In this document: positions 38,688 to 42,921 of the stretch, one piece after another | Layout of the letters: each line of letters opens with the position of its first letter | How positions within the stretch are numbered: the stretch's first letter is position 1 | Assembly: GCA_015232455.1 (NCBI GenBank) | Contig: JADFZQ010000014.1 | Coordinates: 1 to 64,000, forward strand | DNA: 64,000 bases | Direction of reading: 5' to 3' | Source: Desulfamplus sp. | GTDB taxonomy: Bacteria; Desulfobacterota; Desulfobacteria; Desulfobacterales; Desulfobacteraceae | The notes under the pieces: generated by a model | Database searches by the model: none | Seen by the model: only the letters and a program-made list of their open reading frames with translations | Told to the model about the DNA's origin: nothing | Program-made: the position numbers and the translations under genes

Positions 38688-40661
38688 TTAATCTATCCCA
38701 TTTTTCCCACAACTATAACTTCCAAGTATTCTAAAAAATTCAGTATTCTGTTCAATTGCTTTTATCACATTTTCAGCACTGCTATTTGTTAAATCGCTTT
38801 CTAAATCGGCATAAAACATATACTGCCAAGGTTTTCCGTGAATTGGTCTTGACTCTAACTTAACAAGGTTTATCTGGTTTTCTGAAAATACCTTCATAAC
38901 CTCAAAAAGTGATCCTGGTTTGTTAGATGTTGAAAAGACAATTGATGATTTTGGCGATGAATTTATCTTACCAGATTCTTCTTTATTAGCCATCTGTCTT
39001 TCAATAACTACAAAACGTGTAAAATTTCTTGGGTTATCTTCAATTGCCTCTTCAAGAACTGCCATACCAAAAAGTTGAGCTGCTTCAACGCTTCCAATTG
39101 CAGCCGATTCAAGATTTCCAGACTCTACAACGGACTTTACAGCACTTGCAGTTGCATTAACTGGCATCATCTTAATGTCAGGATTTGCATCTAAAAATCT
39201 TTTGCATTGCTGCAACGCTGGAGTTGGTGCAAATACCTGTTTTATATCCTCTAATTTACTATCTTTGTGAGCTATTAAATTGTGAATTACCCGAATTGAC
39301 AACTCACCAGTTATAAAAAGCTCATATTCAAGAAGAAGATCATAATTTTCATGGATACTTCCAGCAAGAGAGTTCTCAATTGGAACTATTCCAAAATCAG
39401 CACTACCATTTTTTACATGCTCAAAAATATCTCTAAATGATGGAACAGGGTAATTTTCAACATCACTGCTAAAATATTGAATAGCTGCTTTATGGCTAAA
39501 AGTTCCTTGCTCTCCAAGATAGACTACACGCTTCTCTTTTCTGGATATTCCTGATTCTATCCCTTGAGTTTCCCATTCTGATAATGCTCTTCCTGAGAAT
39601 AATGTTGATAAAGAGTCTCTATTTTCAGAACTATAGCCTGTATAGTCGTGGATAAGCTGCTTGCCTACAACAGGGGCGATTACATAAATATCTCTGATAA
39701 GCCGTCCAAACTGCTTTGGATATAAACTTTGAGGACCATCAGATAGAGCCTCTTCTGGCTTGTGGTGCACCTCAATCATTAAGCCATCAGCACCAGCAGC
39801 AATTGCAGCTCTTGCCATTGGGCTTACCTTTTCTCTAATTCCAGTTGCATGGCTTGGATCAATTAATACTGGCAGATGTGTCAACTGTTTTAAAACTGGT
39901 ATTGCTGATAAATCAAGGGTGTTTCTTGTGTAAGGCTCAAAAGTTCTTATGCCTCGTTCGCACAAAATTATGTTTCTATTTCCTTCTGCTGCAATATATT
40001 CAGCAGACATGAGCCACTCTTCAATTGTTGAGGCAAGACCGCGTTTTAAGACAACTGGTTTTCCCATTCTGCCAGCACATTTAAGAAGCTCAAAATTTTG
40101 CATATTTCTTGCACCAATTTGAATTACATCAACATATTTCATCATCAAATCTGCGTGCATTGGGGAAGTTATTTCAGTAACTACTCGAAGTCCTGTAACT
40201 TCACGAACTTCAGCTAAAATTTTAAGCCCCTCTTCTTCAAGCCCTTGAAAAGAGTATGGTGATGATCTTGGTTTAAATGCACCGCCTCTGAAAAGAGTAG
40301 CACCATATTTTTTAACCTCTTTTGCAATTATCATTGCCTGTTCTCGGCTCTCTACCGCACAAGGACCAGCTACAATGGTAATTTTATCTCCTCCAATCTC
40401 TACATTGCCAATTCTGATTATAGTATCTTCTTGTTTCATCTGTCTGCTAACTAGTTTATAAGCAGTAGATATTGGCACAACATCTTCAACACCCTCTATG
40501 GACATCAAAAACTCTTTAGTTAGATTTTTCTTGCCAATAACACCAAGTATATTTTGTCCGCTTCCACCCGGTTCATGTACCATGTAGCCTTTTTCTGCCA
40601 AAATGCTTTTAAGTTGGCTCTTTTTTACCTGCGTGATTCCTTTTTCTAATACAAGTATCAT
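38688..40661 (-). CDS. DAHP synthase - prephenate dehydratase fusion
   Basis: The 657-residue bifunctional enzyme has residues 1-~340 as AroF/AroG-type class I beta DAHP synthase with its ferredoxin-like N-terminal domain (MILVLEKGITQVKKSQ). Active-site stretches are ITIVAGPCAVESREQ, FRGGAFKPRSSPYSFQG, KPVVLKRGL and LIDPSHATG. Residues ~378-560 are prephenate dehydratase (VVYLGEQGTFSHKAA, GIVPIENSLAGSIHENYDLL, NFTRFVVIE), and a C-terminal ACT domain (NKPGSLFEVMKVF, LESRPIHGKPWQYMF) binds phenylalanine. No chorismate mutase domain is present. It thus joins the first shikimate step to the committed step to phenylalanine. A Phe leader-peptide attenuator precedes it. Confidence 0.93.
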   Translation of the reverse strand: MILVLEKGITQVKKSQLKSILAEKGYMVHEPGGSGQNILGVIGKKNLTKEFLMSIEGVEDVVPISTAYKLVSRQMKQEDTIIRIGNVEIGGDKITIVAGPCAVESREQAMIIAKEVKKYGATLFRGGAFKPRSSPYSFQGLEEEGLKILAEVREVTGLRVVTEITSPMHADLMMKYVDVIQIGARNMQNFELLKCAGRMGKPVVLKRGLASTIEEWLMSAEYIAAEGNRNIILCERGIRTFEPYTRNTLDLSAIPVLKQLTHLPVLIDPSHATGIREKVSPMARAAIAAGADGLMIEVHHKPEEALSDGPQSLYPKQFGRLIRDIYVIAPVVGKQLIHDYTGYSSENRDSLSTLFSGRALSEWETQGIESGISRKEKRVVYLGEQGTFSHKAAIQYFSSDVENYPVPSFRDIFEHVKNGSADFGIVPIENSLAGSIHENYDLLLEYELFITGELSIRVIHNLIAHKDSKLEDIKQVFAPTPALQQCKRFLDANPDIKMMPVNATASAVKSVVESGNLESAAIGSVEAAQLFGMAVLEEAIEDNPRNFTRFVVIERQMANKEESGKINSSPKSSIVFSTSNKPGSLFEVMKVFSENQINLVKLESRPIHGKPWQYMFYADLESDLTNSSAENVIKAIEQNTEFFRILGSYSCGKNGID

Positions 40662-40742
40662 TTTCCTAATTCTCCTTATAAAATTTAGTTTAAAATATTA
40701 TTTTGTAACTAACAAATAGTTTTAACCTCGAAATATCTTCGT

Positions 40743-40783
40743 AAAAATAAAAAATGCCCTGAAAGCGTTGCCTCCAGAGCATT
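40743..40783 (-). terminator. Second intrinsic terminator in the Phe leader
   Basis: On the minus strand AATGCTCTGGAGGC and GCTTTCAGGGCATT pair over 14 positions with G-U wobbles around an AAC loop, followed by TTTTTTATTTTT. It stands directly behind the U-run of the first terminator, 82 bp before the coding region. Confidence 0.8.
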
Positions 40784-40826
40784 AAAAATAAAAAACCCTG
40801 GATAGACTAAAATGTCCATCCAGGGT
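40784..40826 (-). terminator. Attenuator terminator (3:4 hairpin) of the Phe leader
   Basis: On the minus strand ACCCTGGATGGAC and GTCTATCCAGGGT form a 13-bp stem with one G-U pair and an ATTTTA loop, followed by TTTTTTATTTTT. The ascending arm (GGATGGAC) is also complementary to GTCCATCC at the end of the leader peptide gene, so this hairpin is mutually exclusive with an antiterminator. Confidence 0.9.
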
Positions 40827-40893
40827 ATAATAGCAATATTGTATTAAAATTGCATATCTATACCGGATGGACGTTTCTAAAAAAGAAACGTCC
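40814..40893 (-). promoter_or_regulatory. Pause and antiterminator structures of the Phe attenuator
   Basis: Transcript regions in order: 1 (GGACGTTTC, 40893-40885) pairs with 2 (GAAACGTCC, 40877-40869) around the Phe codons. Region 2 extended (GTCCATCCGGTATA, 40872-40859) pairs with 3 (TATACC, CU bulge, GGATGGAC; 40829-40814) over 14 bp. Region 3 otherwise enters the terminator. A ribosome stalled on the Phe codons covers region 1 and permits 2:3; one that finishes at TAG covers region 2 and permits the terminator. Confidence 0.88.
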
Positions 40894-40932
40894 GAAAATA
40901 AAGAGTATATTTTTTTGTGCTGTTTTAACCAT
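40858..40932 (-). CDS. Phenylalanine leader peptide
   Basis: ATG at 40932 with GAGG 8 bases upstream opens a 24-codon frame ending in TAG at 40858. The peptide starts MVKTAQKNILF and continues IFGRFFF, so five of eight consecutive residues are Phe (TTT, TTC, TTC, TTT, TTT), ending RNVHPV. The Phe cluster lies exactly in the 1:2 hairpin. This resembles the leader peptides of E. coli pheA and pheST. It measures charged tRNA-Phe for control of the DAHP synthase-prephenate dehydratase gene. A TTGACA box at 41015-41010 may be the -35 of its promoter; no good -10 is clear. Confidence 0.88.
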   Translation of the reverse strand: MVKTAQKNILFIFGRFFFRNVHPV

Positions 40933-41034
40933 TAATAATCCTCAATTTAACCACCCACAAACTCTTAGATTAAAATATTGGGATAATCAATTACATATTG
41001 AAATTTTAATGTCAAGAAATTTATCAAAAGAAAA

Positions 41035-41466
41035 TTAGAGGTTATAGACATCTTCTCCTTTAATAACCTTAATCCCATTTTGATTTAAAATAGATATAGC
41101 TTTATCTAAATCGTGAAATCTAAATATCATAATAGCATTATGTCCCTTTGTATTTGCAAACGCATACATATATTCAACATTAATCCCTGCTGACGTTAAA
41201 GGATCAAGGACATTGTTAAGCCCACCTGGGACATCTGCAACCTCAATTGCTAAAACATTGGTCTTTCCAACTGTAAAGCCCTCTTTTTTTAAAGCTATTT
41301 CTGCTGCTTGGTTATCATTTACGATTAGTCGAAGTATTCCAAAATCTGTTGTATCTGCAAGAGAAAGTGCTCTTATATTTACATTAGCATCTCTTAAAAT
41401 GGCGGTTACTTCAGCAAGCCTGCCAGCCTTGTTTTCAAGAAATATTGAAATCTGCTCAACTTTCAT
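41035..41466 (-). CDS. Tandem ACT-domain amino-acid-binding protein
   Basis: The 143-residue protein has two ACT domains, [20 protein letters not shown] and [20 protein letters not shown], ending with [12 protein letters not shown]. In Desulfobacterota and archaea such proteins are encoded next to phenylacetate-CoA ligase and indolepyruvate oxidoreductase genes and probably sense aromatic or branched amino acids. It lies 153 bp behind paaK with a palindromic repeat in the gap. Confidence 0.87.
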
Positions 41467-41619: not shown

Positions 41620-42921
41620 TTACTTTCTCTTATCAATGACTCTTACAGCTTTACCTTCACTTCTTTGAATAGTTTTAGGCTCAACCAATTTTATTTTTGC
41701 TGAAACACCCAAATATTCCTTAATATCGTTAGATAGTTTATGCTCCATATTCTGCAAGGTTTTAATCTCATCAGAAAAGAACTCCTGACCCACCTCAACC
41801 ATTACAGTCAAAGTATCAAGATTATCAACTCTATCAACTACAAGCTGATAATGAGGCTGAATATCTTTACTTTTCATCAAGACACTCTCTATTTGAGATG
41901 GGAAAACATTAACGCCTCTTATAATGAGCATATCGTCAGTTCTACCTGATACCTTTTGCATTCTTACATGAGTTCTACCGCAGACGCATGGTTCTGGATT
42001 TAGTGAAGTTATATCTCTTGTTCTGTAGCGGATAACAGGGAATGCCTCTTTAGTTATTGAGGTAAATACAAGCTCGCCTGTCTCACCATAAGGAAGCGGC
42101 TCGCCCGTTTCTGGATTAATTATTTCTGCAATAAAATGGTCTTCAAATATGTGCAAGCCCTTTTGAGCTTCGTAGCACTCAATAGATACGCCCGGACCCA
42201 TAACTTCGCTTAATCCATAAATATCAATAGCTTTAAGATGAAGTTTTTCCTCAAGGTCTCTTCTCATATCTTCAGACCAAGGTTCTGCCCCAAAGATTCC
42301 AGATTTAAAGTGCAGCTCTTCAAAAGAGACTCCCATCTCTTGGGCAACTTCAGCAAGATGCAAAATATATGAAGGTGTGCCAGTAAGAATTGTGGGTTTA
42401 AAATCTTTCATTATGATTATCTGGCGTTTCGTATTTCCACCAGAAACAGGTATTACAGAAGCTCCAAGTCTTTCAGCACCATAATGGACACCAAGACCAC
42501 CTGTAAAAAGCCCATATCCATAGGCATTATGGACAATATCTTTACTTGTAGCACCACCTGCAGCAAGGCTTCTTGCCATAAGTTCTGCCCATGTTGCAAT
42601 ATCTCTTTTTGTGTATCCAACAACTGTTGGCTTTCCAGTTGTTCCAGAAGATGCGTGAATCCTCACAACATTTTCCATTGGAACCGCAAACATTCCATAA
42701 GGGTAGTTATCTCTTAAATCCTGCTTTACTGTGAACGGAATCCTCTGAAGGTCTTTTAAACTTTTAATACCTGATGGTGTAATGCCAGCTTTATTAAAAT
42801 TTTCACGATAAAATGGAACTGTGGCATAAACTCGTTCAAGAGTGGCTTTAAGACGGCTTAACTGTATGGATTCAAGTGCCTCTCTGGGCATGGTTTCAAA
42901 ATCCATATTATAAATTGGCAT
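41620..42921 (-). CDS. paaK: Phenylacetate-CoA ligase
   Basis: The 433-residue AMP-forming ligase makes phenylacetyl-CoA (or a related aryl-CoA) from acid, ATP and CoA. Motifs: [19 protein letters not shown] (P-loop), [17 protein letters not shown], and the zinc-binding-type [20 protein letters not shown] with [13 protein letters not shown] at the C-terminal domain. In sulphate-reducer relatives it acts with 2-oxoacid:ferredoxin oxidoreductases in aromatic amino-acid use. That partner is not in the window. Confidence 0.93.

Follow-up and report, generated by a model that had tools for sequence, protein, structure and literature searches.

Amino-acid attenuation is textbook biology in enterobacteria, where the attenuators of pheA and pheST have four segments and one terminator; outside that group it has, to our knowledge, been described only sparsely. 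The his attenuator, as laid out in the relevant part of PMC10989985, is a chain of six segments with two configurations, AB/CD/EF versus BC/DE, and a ribosome stall on the regulatory codons. For the Desulfobacterota, the relevant parts of earlier papers hint at single cases only, from Desulfovibrio vulgaris and Geobacter. In the former, a putative attenuator taken from Merino's database is listed before aroA'>aroB'>aroQ-pheA>aroF>tyrA>[trp] (Table 7 of PMC1173090, the part that concerns us). In the latter, a conserved RNA element (Gmet_R0069/GSUR082) is placed 5' of aroG-2, whose product is a DAHP synthase of the T. maritima type; a further conserved sequence, upstream of iorAB-paaK, is filed under tryptophan (both in the corresponding part of PMC2700814). 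The relevant sections of PMC4833913, PMC2864571 and PMC9413887 contain nothing on Phe attenuators of Desulfobacterota.

The locus described here lies in a 64,000-nucleotide stretch of DNA from Desulfamplus, a sulfate reducer (hereafter the window), which an earlier note based on the sequence alone had attributed to a probable desulfobacterotal host; this attribution was right, with the fusion protein discussed below being 96–97% identical to that of the nearest named relative and 80–97% identical within Desulfamplus. The regulated gene (38688–40661, minus strand) codes for a protein of 657 aa which combines, in one ORF, a ferredoxin-like domain, a type I-beta DAHP synthase, a prephenate dehydratase and an ACT domain (Pfam PF18152, PF00793, PF00800 and PF01842), i.e., all four domains of a DAHPS I-beta-PDT-ACT fusion. 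Upstream on the same strand are genes for an ACT-pair protein (41035–41466; PF19571) and a PaaK or phenylacetate-CoA ligase-like protein (41620–42921; TIGR02155 at 623 bits, slightly under the cut-off of 646). The element of interest sits between the stop of the ACT-pair gene (41035) and the start of the 657-aa gene (40661). With a probability of roughly 0.87, we read it as a ribosome-read transcription attenuator, a six-segment Phe switch that is part of a Desulfobacterota-wide group of aromatic attenuators.

The leader ORF has 24 codons (MVKTAQKNILFIFGRFFFRNVHPV; 40858–40932, minus strand, with in-frame indels in 56/56 orthologues), a GAGGA ribosome-binding site 6 nt before its ATG (40939–40943, minus strand) and a UAG stop (40860–40858) at the 3' end of segment 2. 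Five of eight consecutive codons specify Phe (codons 11, 13, 16, 17 and 18): Phe 16 lies inside segment 1, Phe 17 and 18 in the loop of the 1:2 hairpin, and Phe 11 and 13 just 5' of segment 1. A possible −35 box of the leader's own promoter, TTGACA, is found at 41010–41015 (minus strand), with no −10 box recognised in the window, and a promoter scan of the window returned no promoter-like pair upstream of the leader. As a raw count, 51/53 orthologues have TTGAC[ATG] in the 160 nt before segment 1, and in at least four of them (L041–L043 and L081) the box is inside the leader ORF.

Six segments follow one another on the minus strand. Segment 1 (40885–40893, codons 14–16) is the 5' arm of the 9-bp helix 1:2, in which 40893–40885 pair with 40877–40869. 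Segment 2 (40859–40877) alternatively pairs through 40872–40859 with segment 3 (40814–40829) to form the 14-bp antiterminator 2:3, with a CT bulge. Segment 3 in turn has segment 4 (40795–40807) as its off-state partner: 3:4 (40826–40814 with 40807–40795, 13 bp) is terminator I and is followed by TTTTTATTTTT, its U-tract (40784–40794). The note had described this leader with its ribosome site, as well as the 9-bp, the 14-bp and the U-tailed 13-bp helices, and all were found where it had put them on the minus strand. Segment 5 (40770–40783) and segment 6 (40753–40766) pair over 14 bp (40783–40770 with 40766–40753) as terminator II, which is followed by the U-tract TTTTATTTTT (40743–40752). Finally, an 8-bp helix 4:5, absent from the note, joins 40802–40795 to 40780–40773 (UCCAGGGU with GCUCUGGA). 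A terminator scan of 40500–41100 recovered both U-tracts and reported terminators I and II only, against 0.2 expected from shuffled sequences. The RNA folding that the note had proposed as a check gave a z-score of −7.4 for the leader, with 0/200 shuffles as good. The predicted fold also has a small hairpin between segments 2 and 3 (40829–40858, minus strand; −4.0 kcal/mol), stacked on the 2:3 antiterminator.

The data support a six-segment chain with an off state of 1:2, 3:4 and 5:6 and an on state of 2:3 and 4:5, usually with two U-tracts. From this arrangement we infer the ribosome stalling, the response to charged tRNA-Phe, the folding order and the effect on expression. When Phe is replete, the ribosome would pass the Phe codons and arrive at the UAG ending segment 2, thereby masking this segment; 3:4 (terminator I) could then form and, with segment 4 occupied, 5:6 (terminator II) would form too, leaving the fusion gene untranscribed. 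Under Phe starvation, the ribosome would stall at the Phe codons around segment 1 and 2:3 would form; the free segment 4 would capture segment 5 once it is made, ahead of segment 6, such that no terminator forms and transcription proceeds into the DAHPS-PDT-ACT gene. If the leader were untranslated, 1:2 would form and the default would be off.

The fusion query matched somewhere in all 86 genomes of the family searched, with some of the matches being partial. We then considered the 59 full-length Desulfobacterota fusions whose contig gave upstream DNA, excluding duplicates (L033–L039, L046), fusions that were truncated or at contig edges (L008, L011, L029, L045, L054) and partial matches. The note had looked to the upstream regions of such relatives for Phe-rich leaders: these are present in 56/59, but absent from the remaining 3/59, namely two from Desulfamplus (L005, L009) and one from genome G059 (L084), which keeps a degraded remnant of the leader (19 bits). 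They are likewise absent from the spirochaete fusions, in 12/12 of those with upstream DNA (L052, L053, L055–L063 and L076), with L074 and L075 being truncated and unread. The element is therefore separable from the fusion, and a lateral transfer of the enzyme to spirochaetes without its switch is possible. By eye, the sequence just upstream of most spirochaete fusions resembles the end of a lytic-transglycosylase-like gene, and in one leader-less Desulfamplus MAG (L005/L034) the fusion abuts a gene that ends like a citramalate/isopropylmalate synthase. A run of at least five aromatic residues in ten codons was observed in 53/56 leaders versus 4.2% of dinucleotide shuffles; of the other three, two run into contig ends (L040, L082) and one reaches a score of 4 (L073). 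That the element is conserved across 56 orthologues excludes a chance origin. In one genus (g3; L094–L097) Tyr codons stand among the Phe codons of the fusion leader (e.g., FFYFR; YYNFFYYNFGRFFYFR), possibly reflecting a shift in the amino acids sensed.

All five helices covary. Over the 56 leaders, 1:2 is 98.9% paired (21 distinct arm pairs) with two-sided changes in 3/9 pairs, the 8-bp core of 2:3 is 98.3–99.1% paired with such changes in 3/8 pairs, and 3:4 is 91.7% paired with changes in 5/12 pairs; for each of the three, 0/2000 arm shuffles matched the observed pairing. The compensatory changes on which the note had staked its three stems are thus there. For 5:6 the two-sided changes affect 10/11 pairs. 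On an alignment that was not fitted to the structures, 4:5 is 94.7% paired with two-sided changes in 3/8 pairs, and the off-state helices show them in 16/28 pairs, a level reached by 0/500 shuffles (1/500 for the number of pair types). The on state, 2:3 with 4:5, is 96.9% paired against at most 59.4% for slid controls, a comparison in which the named helices are favoured because the pairs were named from the window sequence; column shuffles were as high in 0/500 cases on four of five measures and in 3/500 on the number of pair types. The leaders are close kin, each stem having only 15–21 distinct arm pairs, so the number of sequences should not be taken as a number of independent events.

Several features point to translation of the leader. 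Segments 1 and 2 are 16, 19, 22 or 28 nt apart, the same modulo 3 in 56/56, and the spacer between segments 2 and 3 occurs in all three phases (22/22/12). Indels in the loop thus come in threes while the 2–3 spacer is free in phase, which argues that the frame is translated. In addition, a stop codon is found 18–24 nt past a conserved AGR codon in 56/56. The locus hence combines a translatable leader ORF rich in codons for the end product, regulatory codons at segment 1 with a stop at segment 2, and mutually exclusive helices 1:2, 2:3 and 3:4 with a terminator. The central claim of the earlier note, a Phe attenuator before a DAHPS-PDT-ACT fusion, is borne out by this anatomy, the Pfam domains and the conservation, with mediation by a ribosome as the reading to which the sequence points. 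A translated leader could also act as an arrest peptide, with the nascent FRSVHPV end rather than the Phe codons stalling the ribosome on Phe or another small molecule, and this end is strikingly conserved among fusion leaders. However, the peptide changes along with the covarying stems, with Arg replaced by Cys and Val by Ile in the Desulfatitalea group, and His by Cys (L010) or Arg (L013, L048), such that RNA pairing explains its conservation. Moreover, leaders of other targets have quite different peptide ends with equal aromatic richness. We accordingly consider an arrest peptide quite improbable, and the ribosome reading Phe codons remains our preferred account.

The note had further treated the attenuator as a control of this one gene. 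It is indeed present there, but it is not peculiar to it, as related attenuators stand before many targets across the phylum. A covariance model of these leaders (R1), used in searches within the phylum, matched at least 224/291 genomes of the order at E ≤ 1e-3 and at least 63/297 genomes of the phylum at E ≤ 1e-5, the E-values being rough. We inspected 89 loci, comprising 61 secondary or weaker order-level matches among those listed and 28 new phylum-level loci; two of them (L176, L177) are identical. An aromatic run of at least five in ten codons was found in 85/89, against shuffle rates of 0–20% by class, with the highest (19.5%) in the aminotransferase class. Of the four under the threshold, three have Phe runs scoring 4 (L136, L159, L231) and the fourth (L233), a double-hairpin element that the Phe model picked up ahead of trpE, has a leader containing WW. 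Searching the window's own genome with R1 up to E = 10 gave 12 rows, i.e., the element itself, its opposite strand (L154) and ten others, of which seven were read (L148–L150, L152, L153, L155, L156) and none was judged a second aromatic attenuator. One of these, L149, was rejected despite an ORF rich in aromatic codons (six F/Y/W/H in ten codons), as it has only a single hairpin and no gene of at least 90 aa downstream within the stretch examined.

Pfam and NCBIfam searches on representatives identified as targets the DAHP synthase I-beta with or without PDT, the AroG-type DAHP synthase, CM-PDT (L191), ADTH synthase followed by DHQ synthase II (with chorismate mutase too in L207), class I/II aminotransferases, trpE (L233), and, at L201, PaaK ahead of genes for an ACT-pair protein and a periplasmic binding protein; L237 had no Pfam match. 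The assignments of aroE and aroA in the operons of ADTH synthase and of AroG, and of the other Liv genes, were made by eye. Mean F/Y/W codons per leader, with the target classes assigned by short sequence motifs rather than a per-locus family search, are 6.3/0.4/0.0 for the fusion, 3.7/5.0/0.8 for ADTH synthase, 4.4/3.8/0.6 for AroG, 4.8/3.0/0.2 for aminotransferases and 7.6/1.1/0.3 for PaaK. Thus, the codons of the leader follow the products of the downstream enzyme. By eye, standalone DAHP synthase paralogues (L064, L065, L067) have leaders rich in Trp, Tyr and Phe (e.g., ETWWWWYPS; ITLWWRGFWFFY) that differ from the fusion leader.

This codon content, together with the frame-preserving indels, also bears on whether the element might be a ligand-binding riboswitch, a T-box or a protein-binding leader with an incidental ORF. 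The strong RNA structure would suit such a reading; against it, no Rfam family (Rfam 15) reaches its gathering threshold in the window or at 10 related loci, the indels keep the frame, and the codons vary with the target enzyme. A match to the Rfam trpB motif (32.2 bits versus a threshold of 59) spans only the two tandem hairpins and was set aside as generic. We find such a leader scarcely credible beside a ribosome-read attenuator.

The second terminator bears most directly on the six-segment reading. The note had taken it to make the off state double: the terminator is present, but this left expression unexplained, since the gene would never be on if 5:6 formed whatever the Phe level; the data support 4:5 as the helix that disarms terminator II. 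A more economical scheme is a classical four-segment Phe attenuator of the pheA type, for which 1:2, 2:3 and 3:4 suffice, with the second terminator as an uncontrolled fail-safe; tandem terminators are common as fail-safes. The pairing of 4:5 was compared with controls. In the 103 of 117 leaders that were counted (56 before fusions and 47 others; 5 of 61 R-set loci were unparsed and 9 were dropped for weak hairpins), the own 4:5 pairing is −14.9 kcal/mol and 97/103 form at least 7 of 8 pairs. With segment 4 from a member of the same class, the values are −14.0 kcal/mol and 92%; with one from another target class, −10.2 kcal/mol and 48%; with a shuffled segment 4, −9.0 kcal/mol and 30%. Own segment 3 in place of segment 4 gives −9.45 kcal/mol and 71%, two figures that come from different ten-base windows of segment 3. 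When segment 4 is permuted among 63 type-A leaders, the pair count falls from 7.62 to 7.48 of 8 (sd 0.037), and the highest value in 300 permutations (7.65) is above the one observed. The 4:5 match is thus class-specific but largely shared within a class, and this complementarity, common to class members and segment 3, leaves room for the fail-safe scheme. Segments 3–6 are GC-rich and partly palindromic, and segments 3 and 6 of the fusion leaders are complementary as well (mean −13.2 versus −16.1 for 4:5). At the 28 phylum-level loci, 4:5 averages −13.2 against −6.2 when shuffled, with misparsed loci included.

Against an uncontrolled fail-safe stand three observations. First, such a 5:6, lying between the switch and the gene, would prevent expression in the on state. 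Second, 4:5 is conserved with two-sided changes. In L069 and similar leaders (e.g., L163), where segment 4 is CUCGGGG and segment 5 CCCCGAG, segment 5 follows segment 4, and segment 3 retains G, forming a G-U pair. Third, at no fewer than 10 related loci (eight, L048 and L069), 5:6 is the sole hairpin with a U-tract, in a survey in which 15/89 were unparsed and L134, L184 and L166 of 11 rows were dropped as artefacts of parsing or N; with no U-tract on 3:4 at these loci, 5:6 must be the regulated terminator there. Among fusion leaders, TTT lies within 10 nt after 3:4 in 54/56, and the tail of terminator II has at least 5 T in 10 nt in 53/56 orthologues, with the other three being parse failures whose tails show T-runs. 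In predicted folds, the window transcript forms 2:3 with 4:5 when ended after segment 5, and 3:4 with 5:6 when ended after segment 6. The former fold at the end of segment 5 is predicted for 31/56 orthologues versus 48/1120 with shuffled segment 5; in 25/56 the minimum-energy fold of segments 2 to 5 is still 3:4, such that the on state there needs kinetic trapping. We therefore hold the fail-safe unlikely, and favour the six-segment switch in which 4:5 releases terminator II.

As for the setting, the note had this attenuator controlling entry into the shikimate pathway. The fusion does carry a DAHP synthase, but it is not this genome's only one: a second type I-beta enzyme, 54% identical to the fusion, is coded on contig 66, and the 600 nt read upstream of it contain no clear leader of this type. 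The DHQ synthase II of the archaeal-type entry had no match in this genome.

Beyond the pathway enzymes, Phe/Tyr-rich leaders precede genes for class I/II aminotransferases of unassigned specificity at ten loci (L229 and L188 assigned by Pfam, L229 being of the PRK06836 type by NCBIfam; L220, L222, L225, L226, L228, L232, L236 and L238 by motif), and these leaders predict an aromatic aminotransferase. Three operons in which PaaK and an ACT-pair protein are followed by Liv-type transporter genes (L199, L201, L203; mostly by eye) have a Phe-rich double-hairpin leader of their own. This setting suggests that these operons make or salvage Phe rather than degrade phenylacetate. The start was located in 29 of 30 PaaK loci. 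A Phe-rich leader whose hairpin core is CCATGG precedes 14 of them, three of which (L261, L266, L271) were already in the earlier set; L274, with an aromatic run of five and lacking the CCATGG core, was kept out of the 14. By eye, the end of the upstream ORF at L255, L260 and L265 resembles that of the enoyl-CoA-hydratase-like gene found before PaaK in the window. The alpha subunit of indolepyruvate oxidoreductase (IOR), required by a phenylacetate-to-Phe route, scores above the cut-off in 8/8 genomes, and no aromatic leader was found upstream of the best IOR copy in these eight, such that the PaaK proposal gains no confirmation from a shared attenuator.

Taken together, we lean towards a broader view in which one phylum-wide class of six-segment, two-terminator attenuators would run the aromatic supply of Desulfobacterota. 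In it, a single stalled ribosome would disarm both terminators by way of 2:3 to 4:5, and the mix of Phe, Tyr and Trp codons would report the product of the enzyme. The PaaK-ACT-Liv operons would make or salvage Phe (e.g., from phenylacetate) rather than degrade phenylacetate, and the PRK06836-type proteins would be aromatic aminotransferases. A well-supported RNA class with no matching Rfam family appears to govern aromatic entry and branch points in many anaerobe lineages, and its architecture offers an answer to how one ribosome can open two tandem terminators. As leader codons track the product, the leaders serve as an annotation tool, predicting functions for proteins whose sequence does not reveal their specificity, namely PaaK-like ligases, ACT proteins, transporters and aminotransferases.

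Our literature search found neither the class nor the chain switch nor the match between codons and product, with an earlier description in Lopatovskaya et al. 2010 being possible. The putative D. vulgaris case belongs to the same phylum and has the kind of target seen with the ADTH-synthase leaders here; the part of PMC1173090 that lists it gives no leader peptide, chain switch, family or DAHPS-PDT. The Geobacter element, from the same phylum and before the same type of gene, is described in the relevant part of PMC2700814 as a predicted short RNA without a mechanism; it is probably a member of the same family. The pheL-type attenuators of pheA and pheST likewise have a Phe-rich leader peptide and ribosome-mediated control of Phe synthesis, whereas the present element has six segments and a target that includes a DAHP synthase too. 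The nearest likeness is to the enterobacterial his attenuator (RF00514, His_leader), which likewise has six segments, two alternative chained configurations and a ribosome stall; its D:E duplex in E. coli, computed at −14.8 kcal/mol, is like 4:5, which here, within the limits set by the controls, is the alternative to 5:6 as D:E is to E:F. RF00514 itself scores 21.4 bits on the element, below the gathering score of 49, and the codons (Phe), phylum and genes differ. In a his-type chain only the last hairpin is a terminator; here 3:4 usually has its own U-tract, as in the window, which would put two terminators under one ribosome. The basic reading of the note was right, but the mechanism takes two extra segments, and the setting is a class that spans a phylum, not a single exotic gene.
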